Part shown: positions 39,663 through 48,389 of the stretch, piece by piece
Layout: each line of letters begins with the position of its first letter
Numbering within the stretch: position 1 is the stretch's first letter
Source of the DNA: Limnohabitans sp. Jir61
GTDB taxonomy: Bacteria > Pseudomonadota > Gammaproteobacteria > Burkholderiales > Burkholderiaceae_C
Reading direction: 5' to 3'
Length of the DNA stretch: 64,000 nucleotides
Assembly (NCBI RefSeq): GCF_003063545.1
Contig: NZ_NESD01000003.1
Location: 62,001 to 126,000, forward strand
Position numbers and translations under genes: made by a program
The notes under the pieces: model-generated
Databases searched by the model: none
Told to the model about the DNA's origin: nothing
What the model saw: the letters and a program-made list of their open reading frames with translations, nothing else

Positions 39663-40949
39663 TCAACGCTCTCGCAATGCTTGCGATACGTTTTGCAGTG
39701 GGCGGAAGAGGTATTCCAGCACTGTTTTTTGACCCGTGCGAATCTCAACAGTTGCGGTCATGCCTGGCGTAGGTTCGATCTTCAAGCCTTTACGCACAAG
39801 GTTAGGATCTTTGATGCGTACCAAAATTCGATAAAAGCCCTCTTCCATATCGGCTGGCGTTGCGCCTGGCTTGCGTTGTTGACGCTCGTCTTTCAATGTG
39901 TCGGGGCTTAAGTGCTCGAGCTCGCCATCTAAGCCACCATACTTGTTGAAGTCATAGGAAGTCAACTTGACAACGGCTTTTTGTCCGACTTTCAAAAAAG
40001 CAACTTCAGATGGTTTGACATAGGCTTCCACCAGCATTTCATCTTCCGTTGGCACGATCTCAAGAATCGGCTGGCCAGCCTGAATCACACCACCTACCGT
40101 GGTTACTTGCACATTCTTCACAACACCCTTCATGGGCGATTTGATGGTGGTGTGCAAATAGGCATCTTCACGGGCTGAAGCACTCTCTTTTGTTTGTGAC
40201 AACTCAGAAGAGACGCGCGTTAATTCAGTGTTGGCGTCTGTGATGTAGCGGTTCTTACGCTCGGCTCGCTGGCCCATGAGGTCGGCTTGCTGACGCTTTA
40301 AACGTAGCAGTTCGACTTCAGACATCACGCCACCTTTCACCAATGGTGCGGTAAGTGTGATTTCACGGGTGATGGCAGCCAAAGATGCGTCGACTGCCTC
40401 GAGTGACTCCATCAACGCTTTTTTACGCGCCTTGTAGGCTTGTGTTTCTTGTTTGATGAGTTGCGTTTCATCTTTCAACTCTGGCGGGAATTTCAATGCA
40501 GAGTCACTTGACTCAGCTCGCAAACGCGCGGCAATGGCTAACAACGACAAATACTTTTCATTTGCTTCGCGATAGCCCGCACCTGAGCGCGCGTCATCCA
40601 TTTGCAACAGTATTTGTTCTTTTTCAACCACGTCACCTTCTCGCACCAGCATTTCGCGCAAGATGCCTGAATCTAAACTTTGAATCACTTGCTCACGACT
40701 CGAAGGGATGATTTTTCCTTGGCCTCGCGTGATTTCATCTAGGCTAAAAAAGCCAGCCCAAATCAAACCCAACAACAACGTAGCTGCGGTGACCCATACC
40801 AACATTCGACTTGCATCACGCTCATCATCTTCGACCGTACGCACGCCAAAACCGGCTACTTTTTTATCGTCTTGCCACAGCTCTTGAAGTTTGTGCCATA
40901 CGGACTGAACCTTTGTCCAATAGGCCATTAGTTTTTCTTTCATGCTCAT
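39663..40949 (-). CDS. type I secretion membrane-fusion protein (HlyD family)
   Basis: 428 residues. One N-terminal transmembrane helix (MLVWVTAATLLLGLIWAGFF, about 50-69), then RGQGKIIPSSREQVIQSLDSG, a long coiled coil, a second lipoyl half (SPMKGVVKNVQVTTVGGVIQAGQPILEIVP) and the family end. It bridges an ABC exporter to an outer-membrane channel. The start ATG overlaps the ABC gene remnant in an ATGA, as in an intact secretion operon. Its ABC partner is truncated, so the system is probably dead unless another exporter is used. Confidence 0.9.
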   Translation of the reverse strand: MSMKEKLMAYWTKVQSVWHKLQELWQDDKKVAGFGVRTVEDDERDASRMLVWVTAATLLLGLIWAGFFSLDEITRGQGKIIPSSREQVIQSLDSGILREMLVREGDVVEKEQILLQMDDARSGAGYREANEKYLSLLAIAARLRAESSDSALKFPPELKDETQLIKQETQAYKARKKALMESLEAVDASLAAITREITLTAPLVKGGVMSEVELLRLKRQQADLMGQRAERKNRYITDANTELTRVSSELSQTKESASAREDAYLHTTIKSPMKGVVKNVQVTTVGGVIQAGQPILEIVPTEDEMLVEAYVKPSEVAFLKVGQKAVVKLTSYDFNKYGGLDGELEHLSPDTLKDERQQRKPGATPADMEEGFYRILVRIKDPNLVRKGLKIEPTPGMTATVEIRTGQKTVLEYLFRPLQNVSQALRER

Positions 40950-41174
40950 GCTCCGCCTGTCTTCACGTCAATGCCGCGCGATAGCTTTTCAATCATTTCT
41001 TGTTTTGGGCCAGCCATCACACATTGGCCAGCCTCGATAACGGCGACCACATCTGCCCATTCCAATAACTGAGGGCGATGCGTTGACATCAACAATGATC
41101 GTCCTTTCAACCACTCTTTAAGTACCGCAATCACATGCGCCTCAGTGTTGCCATCCATGTTGGCGGTAGGTTCG
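40946..41174 (-). pseudogene. truncated type I secretion ABC exporter (C-terminal fragment)
   Basis: Homology to ABC exporters starts at EPTANMDGNTEAHVI (after Walker B) and includes the H-loop (LLMSTHRPQLLEWAD) and the tail VAVIEAGQCVMAGPKQEMIEKL. The membrane domain, Walker A, signature and Walker B Asp are missing. Upstream of about 41174 the sequence is that of the 152-bp inverted repeat of the integrase module. The gene was broken within its Walker B codons. Confidence 0.85.
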
Positions 41175-41296
41175 ACAGTGGGTTCATGGGAAATCATCAA
41201 GGCCAAATAGAAATCCCAGCGTTACTTTCGCTCTGCACATCAAAGTCTTTAAACGTCAGTGAATCCATCATTTGCAAGATTCTTGGCGTCTACGCG
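41145..41296. repeat. 152-bp inverted repeat, left arm (integrase module)
   Basis: The reverse complement is found at 42484-42635 with a single mismatch (A at 41211-41213 region against G). The outer 30 bp are exporter-gene sequence; the inner part corresponds to the 3' end of the integrase gene on the other arm. Confidence 0.92.
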
Positions 41297-41319
41297 TGGT
41301 AACTTTTTTGTATCTCAAA

Positions 41320-42531
41320 ATGAAAAAATCTACACATTGGCGAACTCTCAACAATCTATCGAAACCTGCAAGATATTCCATTCCAGAAATGCGTGGTTTG
41401 CATCTATGGGTGCGCTCGGACCTAAAAAAATATTGGATATTTAGGTTCACTTTTGAAGGTCGACGTCATGACATGAGTCTTGGTAGTTTTCCCGCGGTTG
41501 GACTCTCCGCCGCCAAAAAGAAATCGTTGAAATTTCGTGGGCAACTCTTCAATGATGAGAACCCTTCATTACTTAGACAAATCGAGAAAAAGGAAAAGAC
41601 TTCTTCAAAGAAAAAAATAACTTTCAAAGCTTTTTCAGCCGACTACATACATCGAATGGCGCCCAAGTGGAGTTCTTCAAAATATGAACATAACTGGCTA
41701 ATGACCATTGAACAATTCGCAAACCCTGTAATTGGCATGTTAGAAATGGAGGCGATTACCACAAATCACATAATTCAGATCTTGACTCCAATGTGGAATA
41801 CCAAGTTTGTTACCGCCACTAGACTGCGAGGACGAATCGAAAAAATTATTTCTGCATCCATAACTACTGGCTACAGATCGTCACCCAATCCTGCAACATG
41901 GAAAAACCACCTTGAAAACTTACTGCCCAACATAAAAAAACCGGCAACTCATCACAATGCACTTCCATATGACAAGATTCCTGATTTTTTCTTCTACCTT
42001 TCACAGATTAATACCTTGCCCTCTCTAGCTCTTCAGTTTGCTGTTTTGAACTGTTGCAGGGCTGGCGAGGTAATTCAAGCAAAAACGTCACAAATCGAGC
42101 GTGATATTTGGACTATTCCTGCCGAAAAAATGAAAGCACGAGTTGAACATCAAATTCCACTAGCCAATAAGTCGCTATTACTTATTGAAAAGGCATCATT
42201 GTTGACATCAGGAGGGCCCTTTTTGTTCTGCTTGGAAGGTCACCGTTTTCACTCGCTTTATATGATAAGACTTGTGCAACAGTTTCAACCTTCTATGACT
42301 ACACATGGTTTCAGGAGCAGCTTTAGAGACTGGGTTTCTGAAGAGACAAACCACAGTCCTGAAGTAGCTGAAATGGCACTGGCACATGCAATTAAGAATA
42401 AAGTTGAAGCCGCTTACCGCAGAGGCAAGTTACTGGAAAAACGCAAGCTTCTAATGAACGACTGGGCTAAGTACTGCTTTTCTCGCGTAGACGCCAAGAA
42501 TCTTGCAAATGATGGATTCACTGACGTTTAA
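41320..42531 (+). CDS. tyrosine recombinase / integrase
   Basis: 403 residues with an N-terminal DUF4102-like arm-binding domain (GLHLWVRSDLKKYWIFRF, MSLGSFPAVGLSAAKKK) as in P4-type integrases, and the catalytic set R247 (CCRAGEV), H329-x-x-R332 (THGFRSSFRDW), H356 (ALAHAI) and Y366 (AAYRRG). All are intact, so it may be active. I chose the ATG at 41320; a TTG at 41272 lies in the repeat. The last 16 codons lie in the right repeat arm. AT-rich compared with the flanks. Confidence 0.9.
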   Translation: MKKSTHWRTLNNLSKPARYSIPEMRGLHLWVRSDLKKYWIFRFTFEGRRHDMSLGSFPAVGLSAAKKKSLKFRGQLFNDENPSLLRQIEKKEKTSSKKKITFKAFSADYIHRMAPKWSSSKYEHNWLMTIEQFANPVIGMLEMEAITTNHIIQILTPMWNTKFVTATRLRGRIEKIISASITTGYRSSPNPATWKNHLENLLPNIKKPATHHNALPYDKIPDFFFYLSQINTLPSLALQFAVLNCCRAGEVIQAKTSQIERDIWTIPAEKMKARVEHQIPLANKSLLLIEKASLLTSGGPFLFCLEGHRFHSLYMIRLVQQFQPSMTTHGFRSSFRDWVSEETNHSPEVAEMALAHAIKNKVEAAYRRGKLLEKRKLLMNDWAKYCFSRVDAKNLANDGFTDV

Positions 42532-42635
42532 AGACTTTGATGTGCAGAGCGAAAGTAACGCTGGGATCTCTATTTGGCCTTGATGATTTCCCATGAACCC
42601 ACTGTCGAACCTACCGCCAACATGGATGGCAACAC
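42484..42635. repeat. 152-bp inverted repeat, right arm (integrase module)
   Basis: Mirror of 41145-41296. It contains the integrase C-terminal codons and, at its outer end (about 42608-42635), the exporter fragment EPTANMDGN in the opposite orientation to the remnant at 40946-41174. The exporter gene does not continue beyond it. Confidence 0.92.
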
Positions 42636-42710
42636 CTGGATCCACTCACATTACTTGTCTCGCAACCTTTACTTTACCTCATTGGTTACCACTTCCAACC
42701 ACCACTCACA

Positions 42711-43124
42711 GTGGGCGCATCTGCTAACTTCCTTGAATGTGGCTGCATAGGCAAAGAAATTTAGAACAGTTACCACAAGTGTTACCACGATGTTCGCCTA
42801 GGTCGCTTCTCTTTATGAGATTACCAACGCACCCCTAACGACACCTCAGAATCATCTTTACTGATAGTTGATGGGGGGGATACCTGTACAGATTGCTTTT
42901 GGTGATGAGTACCTGCCTAGATACACAAAAAGGAGCTACAGAGATCTGCTGACACTAGTAATGCTTACCTACTTACCACTACCAGTTGTTACTTCTTATC
43001 AATCCTTGTCTTAACTCCGTCTTTGACATGCTTCATCCATTGAACATACATCTGCTCTCTTAACCAGTCTTCATGATCAACTGTTGTAATGAACGAATCG
43101 TGTACAGGAAGGACAGGGATATCA
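42711..43124. repeat. terminal inverted repeat, left (414 bp)
   Basis: Reverse complement of 47229-47642, no mismatch found by eye, including a run of seven G. It includes the last 43 codons and stop of the polymerase-like gene and about 278 bp of non-coding DNA. The motif GTTACCAC occurs twice 12 bp apart (42769-42788) and once more outside at 42685-42692. Confidence 0.93.
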
Positions 43125-44176
43125 GCCATAACACCTTCGTACATGATGTCCAAAGCTATCTGACCTTCAAGGCTTTGCAGCATAGCCCCCATATCTTTGA
43201 ACAAGGCTCCTTTTATTGAAGGAAAAGCAGTAAGCGTAGCCTCCTTGAGTGCATTGAACCGCTCTCGATTTACACGTCTACGTTTCAAAGCATTGAAAGC
43301 CGTGTCTTCATTGTCTGCCCCTAACGATGCAGTCATGAACTCTTTGACCTTCTCCCTTGTTGTTGATGCAAGTAAGGCGATGTCCGTGTAGGGGTCATTT
43401 GGTAGAGGATCAACATGGCCAGCAAGTAGCATCATCAGATGGTTGGATTTGTAATCAAGCTCTACCGTTGGTTGCCTATTGATTGTTAGCTCTGCCCTAA
43501 TGTTCCTAGGCATGTTCTGGAAGCGAGAAAAGACTCGACCGCCACGAACTGGACCTCCAGAGTAGACAAGTTTCATAGGGCCCTTCTGAGGCCATTTAAA
43601 GCCCTCTAAAAAGGTGTTTATGGCTCTCAGGCGAACAAGGTCATGGTGATTATCAGGAAGCTCCTCTGGGCCGTATAAAAAGCCTTTTAAAACGATGACC
43701 TCTGTATCGTCGACAGCTTGCAAATGATCACCGATTAATGGCGCTTCTACAGCCTCTGATAGCTTCTCAGTTCCATAGATACGGGTTATCCGACCGAAGC
43801 CCCCAACATGGTTGTAAAACCCCTTAAAAACGGTGATGTAGCCATCTGCATTTAAGCGCTCGATAGCTGCTTTGGTAAACTTATAAGTAAGGCCTAGGCT
43901 ATGCCAGTAATTTCCCTTGTCATATGCCCTGTTAGCTAGAGAAATGCCGGTATACGTGCCTCTAATGCTGTTGTAAATAACATTCAGCAAGATGACCCTG
44001 TAGCAGTCCCTAAACTTGTGTCGTTGGTCTTTTGTTAGCTTTTTCGGATGGCTGACTACCAAAGATGAAAGTAGACTTTTAAGGGCTATTTCTTGCTCGC
44101 CAACCACCTCTAAGCGCATAGGCTCAAGTGGCATGGAGTACTCAAGATCTTCAGGTTGCGCAACAAAGAAATTCAT
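42989..44176 (-). CDS. superfamily-A polymerase-like protein (TV-Pol type)
   Basis: 395 residues. The N-terminal third contains a winged-helix-like region (KFTKAAIERLNADGYITV). The C-terminal half has the palm of family A DNA polymerases and T7-type RNA polymerases: motif A VELDYKSNHLMMLLAGH (D241), an O-helix-like TREKVKEFMTASLG (R274, K278), and motif C PVLPVHDSFI (H359-D360-S361). No exonuclease domain is present and the protein is far shorter than Pol I, as described for the transposon/virus polymerase family (Iyer and Aravind). It probably primes or copies the element. Activity is inferred from the motifs only. Confidence 0.72.
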   Translation of the reverse strand: MNFFVAQPEDLEYSMPLEPMRLEVVGEQEIALKSLLSSLVVSHPKKLTKDQRHKFRDCYRVILLNVIYNSIRGTYTGISLANRAYDKGNYWHSLGLTYKFTKAAIERLNADGYITVFKGFYNHVGGFGRITRIYGTEKLSEAVEAPLIGDHLQAVDDTEVIVLKGFLYGPEELPDNHHDLVRLRAINTFLEGFKWPQKGPMKLVYSGGPVRGGRVFSRFQNMPRNIRAELTINRQPTVELDYKSNHLMMLLAGHVDPLPNDPYTDIALLASTTREKVKEFMTASLGADNEDTAFNALKRRRVNRERFNALKEATLTAFPSIKGALFKDMGAMLQSLEGQIALDIMYEGVMADIPVLPVHDSFITTVDHEDWLREQMYVQWMKHVKDGVKTRIDKK

Positions 44177-44194
44177 AGAAATGCACCATATAAA

Positions 44195-44208
44195 GTGAAT
44201 TAATTCAC
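44195..44208. promoter_or_regulatory. 14-bp palindrome upstream of the polymerase-like gene
   Basis: GTGAATTAATTCAC is a perfect palindrome beginning 18 bp before the start codon of the minus-strand polymerase-like gene; a likely operator. Confidence 0.5.
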
Positions 44209-44245
44209 ATCTTAGGTGGTCCCACTTCGCCTCTTACTTCTTATG

Positions 44246-44259
44246 TTTTGTATACAAAA
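44246..44259. promoter_or_regulatory. 14-bp palindrome TTTTGTATACAAAA
   Basis: A perfect palindrome in the 250-bp divergent intergenic region, resembling GntR-type operators. No regulator gene is in the element, so a host factor or one of the unknown proteins might bind. Confidence 0.5.
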
Positions 44260-44426
44260 TTAGCATTTAAACAGTCTGCGAGTGCTAAGTCACTGCGGCT
44301 CTATTAATAATAATTTTTAACTCATTCTTTCAATGTAAGACCTGATTAGCCAGAATTCAGCTCGATTCAGAGAAGAAAAGTAAGAAGCTATTAAAGGAAC
44401 AACAGCCCTAAGTCGATTCTGTAGGT

Positions 44427-44783
44427 ATGAACGCCGAACAATTTATCGAATCTGCTAACGATTTTGCAAAAGCTAGTGCAAAAACTTCTAGCGTTGAAAT
44501 CCAACAAGCCTTTGAGGACAACTTAGATTGCCTTGCTCGTCCCGGGAAGCAAGTTGTCGTAATACGCAAACCTTGGCCAATAGGCCGCTGGGGCACAGTC
44601 ATTGCATTTCGAGAATTCAGTCCCTGCTATTTCCGCGTAGAAGTTGAAATAGAGGGAAAGCACTTGCAAATTCCAGCCCACTCATTAGCTCGTTGGGTCG
44701 GAGGTCCAGACTGCGAGAAGGCCGAACTTCAGTACATCTATCTGTTAATGAAAATTAATGGTTTAACTATAGCATCTGGATAA
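44427..44783 (+). CDS. unknown protein in the TIR element
   Basis: 118 residues. The N-terminal half is helical and acidic (MNAEQFIESANDFAKASAKTS). The second half has a beta-rich, small-barrel-like pattern around KQVVVIRKPWPIGRWGTVIAFREF and YFRVEVEIEGKHLQIPAHSLARWV, perhaps an SH3-like fold. No family recognised. Divergent from the polymerase-like gene across the region holding two palindromes. It has the AT-rich codon use of the element. Confidence 0.5.
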   Translation: MNAEQFIESANDFAKASAKTSSVEIQQAFEDNLDCLARPGKQVVVIRKPWPIGRWGTVIAFREFSPCYFRVEVEIEGKHLQIPAHSLARWVGGPDCEKAELQYIYLLMKINGLTIASG

Positions 44784-44929
44784 TATCTAAGTATCCAAAA
44801 TTTTAGTATCGCATCACCGTAAATTGAGCCATATATATTTTTTGATTAGGCACGACACAAACATACGCTCCGTGGTGTACGCCAAGTGGCTAATTGCCGC
44901 ACCAAGGTCCATAACTTTACAATTTTGAA

Positions 44930-45301
44930 ATGCTATTTAACAGTGAACATAAACAGGAAAGATTGACGTTTATCAGCATGCTGGACACTCCGGAACGCCA
45001 GCAATTGGCGAACACCTTACTGGATCACCAGCTACCCAGACTCGCTGCAGATTTAGAAAACGAGCTACATAAACAAGACGCTCGAGTAGTGTTTGAGTCA
45101 GTGTTTCATCGCAAGTCTCCACGCATTAAGGTTATTGTTAAGCTGAAAAAACAAGAACACAAAATAATTATTCATCTTGATAGCAAAAAATCCCTGTGCA
45201 AAGTTGGTAGCGAGAGCGGACTAGGAGGTTCTCCTGCCGACAGTGCTGAGAGTGTTTGCCGCGTTGCAAAAAATATGATGTTACGAGTGCGTAGTATTTG
45301 A
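44930..45301 (+). CDS. unknown small protein in the TIR element
   Basis: 123 residues, mixed charge, helical start (ERQQLANTLLDHQLPRLAADLENELH), then a beta-rich middle (ARVVFESVFHRKSPRIKVIVKLKKQEHKIIIHLD) and a Gly/Ser-rich end. No family recognised. It is convergent with the repeat-protein gene, 61 bp apart. The intergenic region 44784-44929 shows no feature I can name. Confidence 0.5.
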   Translation: MLFNSEHKQERLTFISMLDTPERQQLANTLLDHQLPRLAADLENELHKQDARVVFESVFHRKSPRIKVIVKLKKQEHKIIIHLDSKKSLCKVGSESGLGGSPADSAESVCRVAKNMMLRVRSI

Positions 45302-45362
45302 TTCAACTTGTCGACTAAATGAAGCAAGAACTTGCGCAACATCCACAGGAAACTTTTAACAC

Positions 45363-46853
45363 CTATTTTCTTTTCTCAAGACGATCGAGTTTGGTATTTA
45401 ACGAATCAACGTCATGCTTGATACCGGCTAGGCGGCCGTGAAATTCCTCTACAAACTTATCGTGCCTAAGTTTTGCTGCTTGTTGAACAGTCAACGGGAG
45501 GGCCTTAGGTGTTGGTTTGACACTTAAATTGACAGCTTGCTTCTTAACTTTTCCAGTTGATGATGGCTGCTGTGAAACAACGTTGCTATGGGAAACTGAG
45601 TCACCAAAGTCAACTTGTCCTCTTTCAATATTGTCCGAAGGTAAAACCACAAAGCGGTCTTCGAGATTTTCTTTTTCAGTTGGCTGTCGATTCACTCCCG
45701 CAGGTCCATCTTCAGGAGCGCCTTGCATGTTCAATGAGGGAACACTGCTATCTATGGGCTGACGATTGGTATCTAACGAGTTTTCACCAACGCCTTGATT
45801 GTCGTCTTTATAAACAAGCTTGGCTGTCTTAGCATCATTTGAAGCTGAGTCACCATTCAACAAAGGTTGGTGATTGTCATCATTCGCCTCTGAGGGAAGG
45901 CCTTGACCGTTTCGATCCGCTTTATCTTTTGGTACCGATTGGTTATTCGGCTCTGTAAGAGATTGTTCAATGGGTTGCTGATTTGCGGCATAGCGATCCA
46001 CCGGGATCCCCTGAACGTTAGCTGCTAGGCCTTTGCCGTTAGCAATGTCTTGCGTGTTTCCAGCGATGTTCCCTTGGCCAACGTCTTGATTGTTTGGCGC
46101 AATGCTGGCAATCCCAACATCTTGTTTGTTACTAGCGATATTGCCTTTGTCAACGCCTTGAACGTTGGGCGCGATTTTGTCGGTAGTGAAAGCTTGATTG
46201 TTCTTGGCGACTGCGTCATTGGGTATACCTTGAACGTTATCTTGAATTGATTTGCCATTGGCAAGGTCTTGCATATTTGCAGCCATATTGCCATTGCCGA
46301 CATTCTGCAAATTGGCTGCAATGTTGCCACTTCCAACATTCTGGTTATTAGCTGAGATTGCATCAGTACCAATGCCCTGAAGATTAGTTGCAATGCCTTT
46401 GCCTTGGTGAATATTTTGTAGATTGGCAGGAATGTTGTCAGTTTCAACAGATTGCATATTGGAAGCAATGCTGTCGGTATTGACGCCTTGAATGTTGGCT
46501 TTGTTTGCTGCATCGGCATCAATTGCTTGCCGATTTTCATTGGCGCCTTTGTCTGCCGCAAGCTTTTGTTTATTCGACTCTAGTGCGCCTGAATCTACGC
46601 TTTGAATGTTTGGGGCAGATGAGCCACCGGCAGCAATGTTCTCCACGTGTTGATCAACTGCCGCAGCTAATGCTTGCTTTGCTTGAATTAGTGCCGCTTT
46701 TTTCTTTTCAAGTGCAATTTTTTTTGCATCTGGATCATCTGCATCAGAGCGAACAATGTTCTTAGGAGTTTTGGCATTGCCCGTATGTTCGGACACGCTA
46801 ATGCTGTGGGAAGAGCCACTACGTACGATGCCAGAAAAATTCTCATCAACCAT
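45363..46853 (-). CDS. dodecapeptide-repeat protein with terminal coiled coils
   Basis: 496 residues. After an N-terminal part with a Lys/Ala coiled coil (about 42-72) come about 24 tandem units (residues 82-399) of 12, sometimes 13, residues with consensus N-x-Q-x-[VI]-x-x-x-x-I-A-x (for example NLQNVGNGNMAA, NNQDVGQGNIAG). The 13-residue units carry an extra residue in xGK-type turns. A charged linker and a C-terminal coiled coil (LRHDKFVEEFHGRLAGIKHD) follow. There is no signal peptide or membrane segment. The regular Asn/Gln ladder suggests a beta-solenoid or fibre. Family unknown. Confidence 0.72.
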   Translation of the reverse strand: MVDENFSGIVRSGSSHSISVSEHTGNAKTPKNIVRSDADDPDAKKIALEKKKAALIQAKQALAAAVDQHVENIAAGGSSAPNIQSVDSGALESNKQKLAADKGANENRQAIDADAANKANIQGVNTDSIASNMQSVETDNIPANLQNIHQGKGIATNLQGIGTDAISANNQNVGSGNIAANLQNVGNGNMAANMQDLANGKSIQDNVQGIPNDAVAKNNQAFTTDKIAPNVQGVDKGNIASNKQDVGIASIAPNNQDVGQGNIAGNTQDIANGKGLAANVQGIPVDRYAANQQPIEQSLTEPNNQSVPKDKADRNGQGLPSEANDDNHQPLLNGDSASNDAKTAKLVYKDDNQGVGENSLDTNRQPIDSSVPSLNMQGAPEDGPAGVNRQPTEKENLEDRFVVLPSDNIERGQVDFGDSVSHSNVVSQQPSSTGKVKKQAVNLSVKPTPKALPLTVQQAAKLRHDKFVEEFHGRLAGIKHDVDSLNTKLDRLEKRK

Positions 46854-46984
46854 ACATTTATTTTATCTAGCATCAGTCATAGCAGCCAGCAGCCTTTTAA
46901 GATCATGGACCTTAACTTGAGTAAATAACATTGAGGCTAGACTTACTAGCAAAAATCAATCTCTCAATGAAATGGAGAAAATAA

Positions 46985-47203
46985 ATGATAGGTGTTCACG
47001 TTGATGCAGTACTAGAAAATTCAAACGCTTTTTTAAGTGGGTTTCGTTTTGGTGATGTGATCTTAGAGGTCGCAAATGTGCAAGTAAAAAATCCCACACA
47101 CATGTTCGATGAAATATCTAAACATGAAGCTAATGGACAGGTAGAGATAAAGTTTTTACGGGGTCAAGAAGTTCTCTTTTGTAAGCTTTCCCTTGCGCAT
47201 TGA
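46985..47203 (+). CDS. free-standing PDZ-domain microprotein
   Basis: 72 residues with a PDZ C-terminal core: GVHVDAVLENSNAFLSGFRFGDVILEVANVQV followed by KNPTHMFDEISKH and a last strand VEIKFLRGQEVLFCKLSL, as in HtrA/DegP PDZ domains (SGF..GDVILEVN). No protease domain, signal peptide or membrane helix. A GGAG ribosome site precedes the ATG. Divergent from the repeat-protein gene over 131 bp. It may bind C-terminal peptides of element or host proteins. Confidence 0.72.
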   Translation: MIGVHVDAVLENSNAFLSGFRFGDVILEVANVQVKNPTHMFDEISKHEANGQVEIKFLRGQEVLFCKLSLAH

Positions 47204-47228
47204 CTCAATAATTACATCTAATCATTTT

Positions 47229-47364
47229 TGATATCCCTGTCCTTCCTGTACACGATTCGTTCATTACAACAGTTGATCATGAAGACTGGTTAAGAGAGCA
47301 GATGTATGTTCAATGGATGAAGCATGTCAAAGACGGAGTTAAGACAAGGATTGATAAGAAGTAA
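47229..47364 (+). pseudogene. 3' fragment of the polymerase-like gene in the right TIR
   Basis: Encodes the last 44 residues (from DIPVLPVHDSF, motif C) of the polymerase-like protein with its stop, identical to the left copy because it lies in the repeat. No start codon or upstream domain. Confidence 0.85.
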
Positions 47365-47642
47365 CAACTGGTAGTGGTAAGTAGGTAAGCATTACTAGTG
47401 TCAGCAGATCTCTGTAGCTCCTTTTTGTGTATCTAGGCAGGTACTCATCACCAAAAGCAATCTGTACAGGTATCCCCCCCATCAACTATCAGTAAAGATG
47501 ATTCTGAGGTGTCGTTAGGGGTGCGTTGGTAATCTCATAAAGAGAAGCGACCTAGGCGAACATCGTGGTAACACTTGTGGTAACTGTTCTAAATTTCTTT
47601 GCCTATGCAGCCACATTCAAGGAAGTTAGCAGATGCGCCCAC
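47229..47642. repeat. terminal inverted repeat, right (414 bp)
   Basis: Mirror of 42711-43124. Beyond it, 47643-47825 holds no gene I can support before the adenosyltransferase stop. Confidence 0.93.
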
Positions 47643-47825
47643 CACAAACGCAAAAACCGGAAGAAACATTAAATCCGCTGATCTAATTGGCAAATTTGAC
47701 AAAAATGATTGTCTCGGGTTTTCCCTGTTTGGTGAATACGCTAATTGGCGTATACGCGTTGTTTTTCAACGGTTTTTCAATGTTTTTGAGTGCGACTTGT
47801 TTGGCGTGTGAGCGAGAGGTATTTT

Positions 47826-48389
47826 TTATGCGTCGCTGCGTTTCATGCGTTCGCTCTTCCAGTACACGTCGTCGCCGCCGTTCATGCGGTTGAGAACACG
47901 GGCGAGGACAAACATGAGGTCGCTCAGGCGGTTGAGGTATTGGCGGGGTGCGTCGCCAATGGCTTCTTCGTTGCCCAAGGCGACCACGGCGCGTTCGGCA
48001 CGACGTGCCACGGTGCGGCAGATGTGTGCATGTGCAGCGCCGCGCGTGCCTGCGGGCAAGATGAATTCTTCAAGCTTGGGGAGCTTGGCGTTGTAGGTTT
48101 CTAGCGCAGTGTCTAGGGCTTGCACGGCTTCTTGTTTGAGCAGTTCAAAGCCGGGGATGGAGAGTTCGCCACCGAGGTTGAAGAGTTGGTGTTGGATTTC
48201 AACCAAGATGTCGCACACGTCTTGGGGCATGTCTTCGCAAAGTAAGACGCCGATGTTGGAGTTGAGTTCATCTACCTCGCCCATGGCGTGAACGCGCAAG
48301 CTATTTTTAGACACCCGTTGGTTGTTGCCCAAACCGGTGGTGCCAGCGTCGCCGGTGCGTGTGGCGATTTGTGAAAGTCGGTTGCCCAT
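47826..48389 (-). CDS. cob(I)yrinic acid a,c-diamide adenosyltransferase (PduO type)
   Basis: About 187 residues of the PduO/MMAB family: IATRTGDAGTTGLGNNQRVSK (ATP-binding loop), VDELNSNIGVLL, an LPAGTRGAAHAHICRTVARRAER block and a C-terminal LSDLMFVLARVLNR. It adenosylates corrinoids to make coenzyme B12, which fits a cell that uses cobalamin-dependent MetH. The ATG at 48389 after GAGGCAAC is preferred to one at 48407. Confidence 0.92.
   Translation of the reverse strand: MGNRLSQIATRTGDAGTTGLGNNQRVSKNSLRVHAMGEVDELNSNIGVLLCEDMPQDVCDILVEIQHQLFNLGGELSIPGFELLKQEAVQALDTALETYNAKLPKLEEFILPAGTRGAAHAHICRTVARRAERAVVALGNEEAIGDAPRQYLNRLSDLMFVLARVLNRMNGGDDVYWKSERMKRSDA

Follow-up and report, generated by a model that had tools for sequence, protein, structure and literature searches.

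Does a pair of long, perfect inverted repeats around a polymerase gene mark a transposon that copies itself, or can it belong to a mobile element of another kind? The question is raised by a locus of Limnohabitans sp. Jir61 (genome G000, 2.63 Mb in 8 contigs), lying in a 64-kb stretch of contig C3 that we analysed as a whole and call the window. The original prediction described a mobile element with a TV-Pol-like polymerase and an adjacent integrase, bounded by 414-bp repeats at 42711 and 47642, flanked by CACA and reminiscent of Polintons, casposons or pipolins. Our analysis bears out the repeats, which are complementary at all of their 414 positions (arms b and b' in Table 1), the five plausible genes between them, chosen from the ORF list within 42989-47203, and the tyrosine integrase beside them. 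However, self-blastn of the whole window (E<=1e-5) reveals two inverted-repeat pairs, side by side, and the second, a and a', encloses the integrase. The order along the window element is host-a-INT-a'-linker-b-CARGO-b'-host, with an integrase module enclosed by a/a' and a cargo module by b/b'.

Table 1. Features of the element and its left host border (window coordinates)
Feature	Position	Strand	Remarks
ABC remnant ORF	40946..41206	-	C-terminal piece of the host type I secretion ABC gene; host DNA to about 41174
Arm a	41145..41296		left inverted repeat of the integrase module; 151/152 complementary to 42484-42635; portion 41145-41174 is ABC-gene sequence
Single GTGGTAAC site	41296..41303	+	just upstream of the integrase start
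Tyrosine integrase	41320..42531	+	403 aa from ATG at 41320; R...HxxR...H...Y residues (by eye)
Arm a'	42484..42635		3'-terminal 48 bp of the integrase ORF and the DNA beyond it
Linker a'-b	42636..42710		75 bp; TTACCTC/TTACCAC pair at 42674-42692
Arm b	42711..43124		left long TIR; 414/414; TTACCAC-N5-TTACCAC pair at 42770-42788
TV-Pol-like polymerase	42989..44176	-	395 aa; residues 351-395 in arm b; phrog_4756 3.1e-30
Cargo ORF	44427..44783	+	118 aa; no significant family
Cargo ORF	44930..45301	+	123 aa; no family
Cargo ORF	45363..46853	-	496 aa, Asn/Gln-rich, repetitive; no significant family in four libraries
Cargo ORF	46985..47203	+	72 aa; PDZ_2 4.8e-8
Arm b'	47229..47642		right long TIR; TTACCAC pair at 47565-47583
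Outermost 14 bp of b'	47629..47642		11/14 as in G104 host sequence (GCAGATGCGCCCAC vs GCAGTTGCGCTTAC)

The limits of homology to host DNA in related genomes define the borders of the element. On the left, this homology stops at 41173/41174, inside the ABC gene, in seven of the eight loci compared, and at 41080 in the eighth (G047). On the right, it restarts at 47629 for G104, a genome of the same genus, and at 47647 for G047, and further right matches resume at 47701 for G057 and at 47831 for G049. The element therefore spans about 41175-47642, and both repeat pairs are parts of this one element of about 6.5 kb within the type I secretion ABC gene, which is cut at its Walker-B region (gene and region identified by reading the sequence). 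Of the two predicted borders, the right one holds, whereas the left one fails and lies at about 41174/41175, beyond the integrase; the 414-bp repeats thus do not bound the element, because the second pair and the integrase lie outside 42711 and inside the element. CACA is literally present at both ends, but it is not a target duplication, since the left host homology does not end at 42710; the left CACA (42707-42710) is internal, between a' and b, by which a transposon with a CACA duplication is ruled out.

The empty site is represented by seven relatives, six of which (G057, G049, G123, G122, G113 and G011) carry an ABC ORF of 717-720 aa, and the seventh, G047, is without TolC and most of ABC. 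The gene order in G057 is adenosyltransferase, OmpA-like 1, OmpA-like 2, TolC-like, ABC (717 aa) and HlyD, with HlyD and adenosyltransferase named by Pfam on the window copies and the other genes of the locus by eye. About 5.3 kb of host DNA found in G057 are absent between the window borders, as estimated from G057 coordinates. Simple integration does not explain this loss, which points either to the use of different host sites by the two ends or to a later deletion. The G047 genome contains no integrase of this group at E<=1e-80. Its type I secretion locus (L055) is reduced, with no integrase element there, and is possibly an old excision scar or a product of plain decay.

The same plan is found in G104, where an integrase 65% identical in protein lies at the same codons of the ABC gene, bracketed by a 143-bp inverted repeat (142/143) and followed by a 109-bp linker and a perfect 478-bp pair (478/478) around a different cargo. 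Because this layout recurs at the same site, inside a contig of 2.62 Mb, an assembly artefact is unlikely, and a chimera was ruled out as an explanation. The G104 cargo has a gene of 487 aa that matches phrog_2467 (unknown function, 3.4e-50); its product is helicase-like by weak Pfam matches (E 0.02) and a P-loop alone, and the gene has no relative in the viral contigs. No polymerase like that of the window is found between the G104 TIRs (tblastn of the polymerase against this locus, L054, best E 0.75). OmpA-like 2 is truncated by the right end of the G104 element, so that its right host border differs from that of the window.

Two further copies of the plan run into contig ends. On contig C4 of the window's own genome, a second integrase, 52% identical, is bracketed by a 162/162 repeat and followed by an 87-bp linker, and the final 127 bp of the contig are the inverted first 127 bp of contig C2. 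The latter repeat takes in 14 bp of the 3' end of a tRNA-Ser gene at 114-206 of C2, and over its outer 58 bp it matches, at 90%, the sequence next to tRNA-Ser in G104 and G101. In Limnohabitans radicicola (G209), an integrase 49% identical is bracketed by a 108/108 repeat, with a 79-bp linker, and the end of contig C10 shares 123 inverted bp with the start of contig C1. Both layouts were followed to the contig ends only, and any cargo would lie beyond; a long repeat b/b' that interrupted the assembly would be expected to leave such breaks in inverted sequence, and the overlaps of 127 and 123 bp, which may reflect assembler word size, give a lower bound for b rather than its length. In the seven relatives in which both genes flanking C4/C2 were located (bactofilin-like; tRNA-Ser/lysC-like; named by eye except the tRNA), these are about 7-21 kb apart in five and about 91 and 103 kb apart in two, so this site is a variable region. 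Contig C5 of the same genome (17.5 kb), in which blastn finds no sequence in common with the C4 and C2 stretches and which has no inverted ends, is possibly the cargo of the C4/C2 copy, by elimination only. It carries a second polymerase-like gene (12299-13765 of L103; 488 aa, in which GR, Q, R, D and HD motifs can be read by eye) without a Pfam, PHROGs or phage match, together with a type III-like methyltransferase, a DrmD-like helicase, a resolvase and a trypsin-like protein. The equal ends of contigs C6-C8 proved to be N aligned to N and are meaningless.

The arms are 99-100% identical within each element, and blastn comparisons of different elements yield only short alignments, of 21 bp at most. 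The linkers of the four elements (the window, G104, C4 and G209) are similarly short, at 75, 109, 87 and 79 bp. When the window and G104 linkers were compared with eight same-site loci (blastn, word 7, best two rows per locus), matches were at chance level, with best E of 0.08 and 0.11, a 109-bp match of the G104 linker to L054 being a self-match; the idea that the linker is host DNA was dropped on this result. The region 40900-48000 has no Rfam match at gathering scores. Since the plan recurs with other repeats and other cargo, the architecture goes with the integrase. The proposal that the TIRs go with the polymerase is not supported.

Two explanations other than transposition turn on the repeats themselves. 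Linear plasmids and poxviruses provide an analogy for inverted repeats grown by terminal copying, and the element could accordingly be an integrated linear replicon in which a and b' are the ends and the repeats grew by copying of terminal sequence. In its favour are near-perfect repeats that contain the 3' ends of genes and are not the same from element to element, and two non-contiguous host borders that fit linear DNA inserted by two exchanges; but no terminal protein or telomere resolvase was recognised among the six ORFs scanned (Pfam, PHROGs), and the attachment-like sites described below are internal, so we regard this explanation as improbable. To the same degree improbable is a rearranged remnant, in which repair or replication errors made the inverted duplications and the host deletion in a dead prophage-like element. 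The missing host DNA, the reduced locus in G047 and a left end without a site pair would fit such a history, which is however at odds with intact, bracketed integrase ORFs in four loci and with arms so nearly identical within elements and alike only in short pieces between them.

The polymerase itself agrees with the original prediction. VELDY of the 395-aa protein corresponds to motif A and VHDS to motif C, and R214, Q220, R227, D241, R274, K278, H359 and D360 are invariant in 14 aligned sequences, the window's included. Among them are the TV-Pol residues as listed in the accessible part of Iyer et al. (PMC2579912), namely a beta-hairpin Arg, two catalytic Asp and a fingers RxxxK, found here as R214, D241, D360 and R274xxxK278. 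When the protein is compared by hhalign with E. coli PolA/T7 polymerase, R214, D241 and R274/K278 are paired with similar residues; the alignment stops short of D360 and is statistically weak (Prob 0.5%, E 0.13). Models of the protein have a mean pLDDT of 34 and 51, low for judging a palm-fingers-thumb fold, and Foldseek finds no match to them at E<=0.001, the best being transcription regulators (E 0.14); no Pfam family is matched. The profile phrog_4756 also takes all four relatives tested, from Vibrio phage VnaP, a Paracoccus plasmid, a Thioclava plasmid and G025. Matches to the polymerase occur in 2 of 101 related genomes, the window's own and G025, and no relative is found in viral contigs. 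The gene ends inside arm b, and arm b' therefore carries a copy of its last 45 codons. As for the other cargo, the 496-aa protein is built from short, degenerate repeats in which N-x-Q (NLQ, NMQ, NNQ) is frequent.

TIRs around the gene, expected at other TV-Pol-like genes if the two belonged together, are found in none of 17 other stretches that carry one; these are 3-17 kb long, mostly phages and with at least one probably in twice, so that distant TIRs could be missed. The one inverted pair among them contains an IS-like ORF in duplicate and is found in L185, a stretch of Paracoccus versutus plasmid pBEN. At 4168-7251 of L185, a 619-aa TV-Pol-like frame adjoins a putative tyrosine recombinase (404 aa, by appearance). 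The proposed likeness to Polintons, casposons or pipolins found no hallmark in Pfam or PHROGs at E<=1: among the five cargo ORFs and the integrase there is no match to a Polinton protein-primed PolB, RVE integrase or capsid, nor to casposon Cas1, the window integrase being a tyrosine recombinase, and no family B polymerase, the class of the pipolin piPolB, is matched in the general profile libraries scanned. A self-replicating TIR transposon of the Polinton or casposon type, spanning 42711-47642 and copied by its own polymerase next to an integrase that is a mere neighbour, would account for the long perfect TIRs around the polymerase and for a right border at a TIR end. Yet the left border lies about 1.5 kb further out, the CACA is internal, G104 keeps integrase and TIRs with no such polymerase between them, and the 17 stretches have no TIRs around that gene. 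We consider this explanation highly improbable and largely refuted.

The integrase carries the catalytic R, HxxR, H and Y and, in its longer frame, matches Phage_int_M (1.1e-19), Arm-DNA-bind_3 (1.2e-12) and Phage_integrase (2.2e-6) of Pfam. At all four defining loci, which were chosen for showing the repeats, its 3' end lies in arm a'. Such a bracket (at least 60 nt, >85%) is found only in the window and G209 among the 30 integrase matches listed with sequence, again in G209 only among a set of 45 loci, and in none of 41 relatives in viral contigs, where L119 has a 43-bp pair elsewhere. Among 11 more loci, three of them overlapping the 45, an inverted repeat is seen in G052 only, as 36 bp followed by the contig end. 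There is none around the integrase in G018, G577, G078, L110 (52% identical), L111, L112 and others. Across the loci surveyed, the bracket thus distinguishes a small group of integrases. A hemH-like gene, so named by eye, is found within about 1-8 kb of each of the integrase loci L053, L092 and L110, which may be a hot spot or chance.

Candidate attachment signals are provided by pairs of TTACCAC-like heptamers, defined as two heptamers with at most one mismatch each and starts 11-13 apart. The 64-kb window has three, in the linker, b and b', where ten first-order Markov sequences of the same length give a mean of 0.4; the motif was derived from these same loci, so that the count is descriptive and not an independent test. 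Pairs are also present in b and b' of G104, C4/C2 and G209 and in the G209 linker, and at the same threshold absent from the G104 and C4 linkers and from L110, L111, G052 and G018. G577, which is without repeats, has one pair near the integrase start. The left end of the window element has no arm-site pair, and a GTGGTAA upstream of the integrase start also occurs in L053 and L054. The outer b' end of G104 agrees with G047 host sequence at 9 of 11 bp (GCCACTACCTC), and the outer ends of b', here as in the window, resemble their host targets. The last 30 bp of arm a' are the ABC sequence at 41145-41174, and the internal junction of G104 carries GATGAACCCACAGC, which agrees at 13 of 14 bp with the uninterrupted ABC gene of G057; these ABC-like stretches may be an att core or a trace of chromosomal copying. 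No direct core common to the left and right ends, of the attL/attR direct-repeat kind, was seen by eye.

The TTACCAC pairs are possibly integrase arm sites. Phage attachment sites serve as a model for reading the internal junction and the element end: if the pairs are arm sites, a'-linker-b would look like a complete attP within the element and b'-host like an attachment end. The inverted site pairs on either side of the cargo could also belong to a chromosomal switch, in which the integrase inverts the cargo, and perhaps itself, to change expression and never leaves the chromosome; since the repeat includes the 3' end of the integrase gene, inversion would leave that gene whole whichever way it points. 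We find such a switch unlikely, as the differing cargo and host sites (ABC gene, tRNA-Ser and others) suggest that the unit also moves.

The reading that we favour, and hold to be somewhat probable, is that the element, about 6.5 kb long, is integrative, is mobilised by the tyrosine integrase that it encodes, and has had its attachment region duplicated in inverted orientation. The segments a'-linker-b and (b', a) would then represent the same long inverted repeat twice, the first copy intact and the second divided when the element integrated. In circular form, the integrase and cargo modules would be set apart by a'-linker-b on one side and its inverted counterpart on the other, an inverted repeat of about 640 bp. 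Recombination by the integrase between the internal site and the right end could invert the cargo, repeated exchange or recombination would keep the arms identical, and priming or copying of the free form would fall to the TV-Pol-like protein. We infer the circle, the flipping, the replication, any amplification and the role of the polymerase from the layout. This integrative-element reading draws on the nested repeats in the window and G104, on the bracketed integrases on C4 and in G209 with their contig ends in inverted sequence, on the short linkers, on the TTACCAC pairs and on the likeness of right ends to their targets; against it count the left end without a pair, the lack of a shared core, the missing 5.3 kb, the reduced G047 locus in a genome without such an integrase, the choice of the four loci for their repeats, the absence of repeats from most further integrase relatives, the G104 and C4 linkers without a pair and the pair without repeats in G577. 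A more specific possibility, which we think doubtful though less so than the switch, is a bacterial counterpart of the yeast 2-micron plasmid, whose recombinase is a tyrosine recombinase. By this analogy the element would be circular, with two inverted repeats of about 640 bp, each bearing an attachment site, between its integrase module and its replication/cargo module, and it would be amplified when the integrase inverts it during replication (double rolling circle); the TV-Pol-like or helicase-like protein would be a replication helper and the chromosomal insertion a dormant state.

Compared with known systems, the element is real and recurrent, and it is not the proposed transposon but a new architectural variant of tyrosine-integrase elements. 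A literature search, covering titles and abstract openings with subscription papers mostly outside it, brought up no description that we recognised as this architecture. Conventional tRNA-Ser-core loci (L111; G018/L158) have an integrase of the same family (46% identity for L111, 459 bits for G018), with a tRNA-Ser-like 3' end upstream of it in L111 and L158 (by eye) and no inverted repeats around it. Mobile elements with TV-Pol, as far as the accessible text of PMC2579912 describes them, likewise place such a polymerase beside a phage-type integrase with no nuclease domain matched; in contrast to them, no D5 helicase is found among the window ORFs scanned (Pfam, PHROGs), and the repeats of the Brucella element of that source are direct and about 200 nt in length rather than long and inverted. 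Polinton-like viruses of algae, according to the part of PMC4642659 available, share with the window element TIRs, a tyrosine recombinase and, in some members, TVpol, whereas the latter has a size of about 6.5 kb, a bacterial host, an integrase with its own inverted-repeat pair and no match to their capsid proteins or packaging ATPase (Pfam, PHROGs). Strand-biased circularizing integrative elements are also driven by integrases, but their intA, tfp, intB and srap, as named in the accessible portion of PMC10214605, were not recognised in the window element, judged without profiles. TIRs together with a polymerase do not necessarily imply a self-synthesizing transposon; if our reading is true, bacterial genomes contain a class of integrase elements that can be marked by long, perfect inverted repeats, at which assemblies break and which would be misread as transposon ends or artefacts. 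The 2-micron plasmid, with its head-to-head, FRT-bearing recombination sites inside 599-bp inverted repeats (PMC6594588, in the text accessible), resembles the window element through a tyrosine recombinase and long inverted repeats, which in the window element contain the 3' end of the recombinase gene and candidate recombination sites; the window element differs in being bacterial and chromosomally integrated. If the likeness is true, it would offer a bacterial, testable system for recombinase-driven inversion and amplification, as that source describes for the yeast plasmid.
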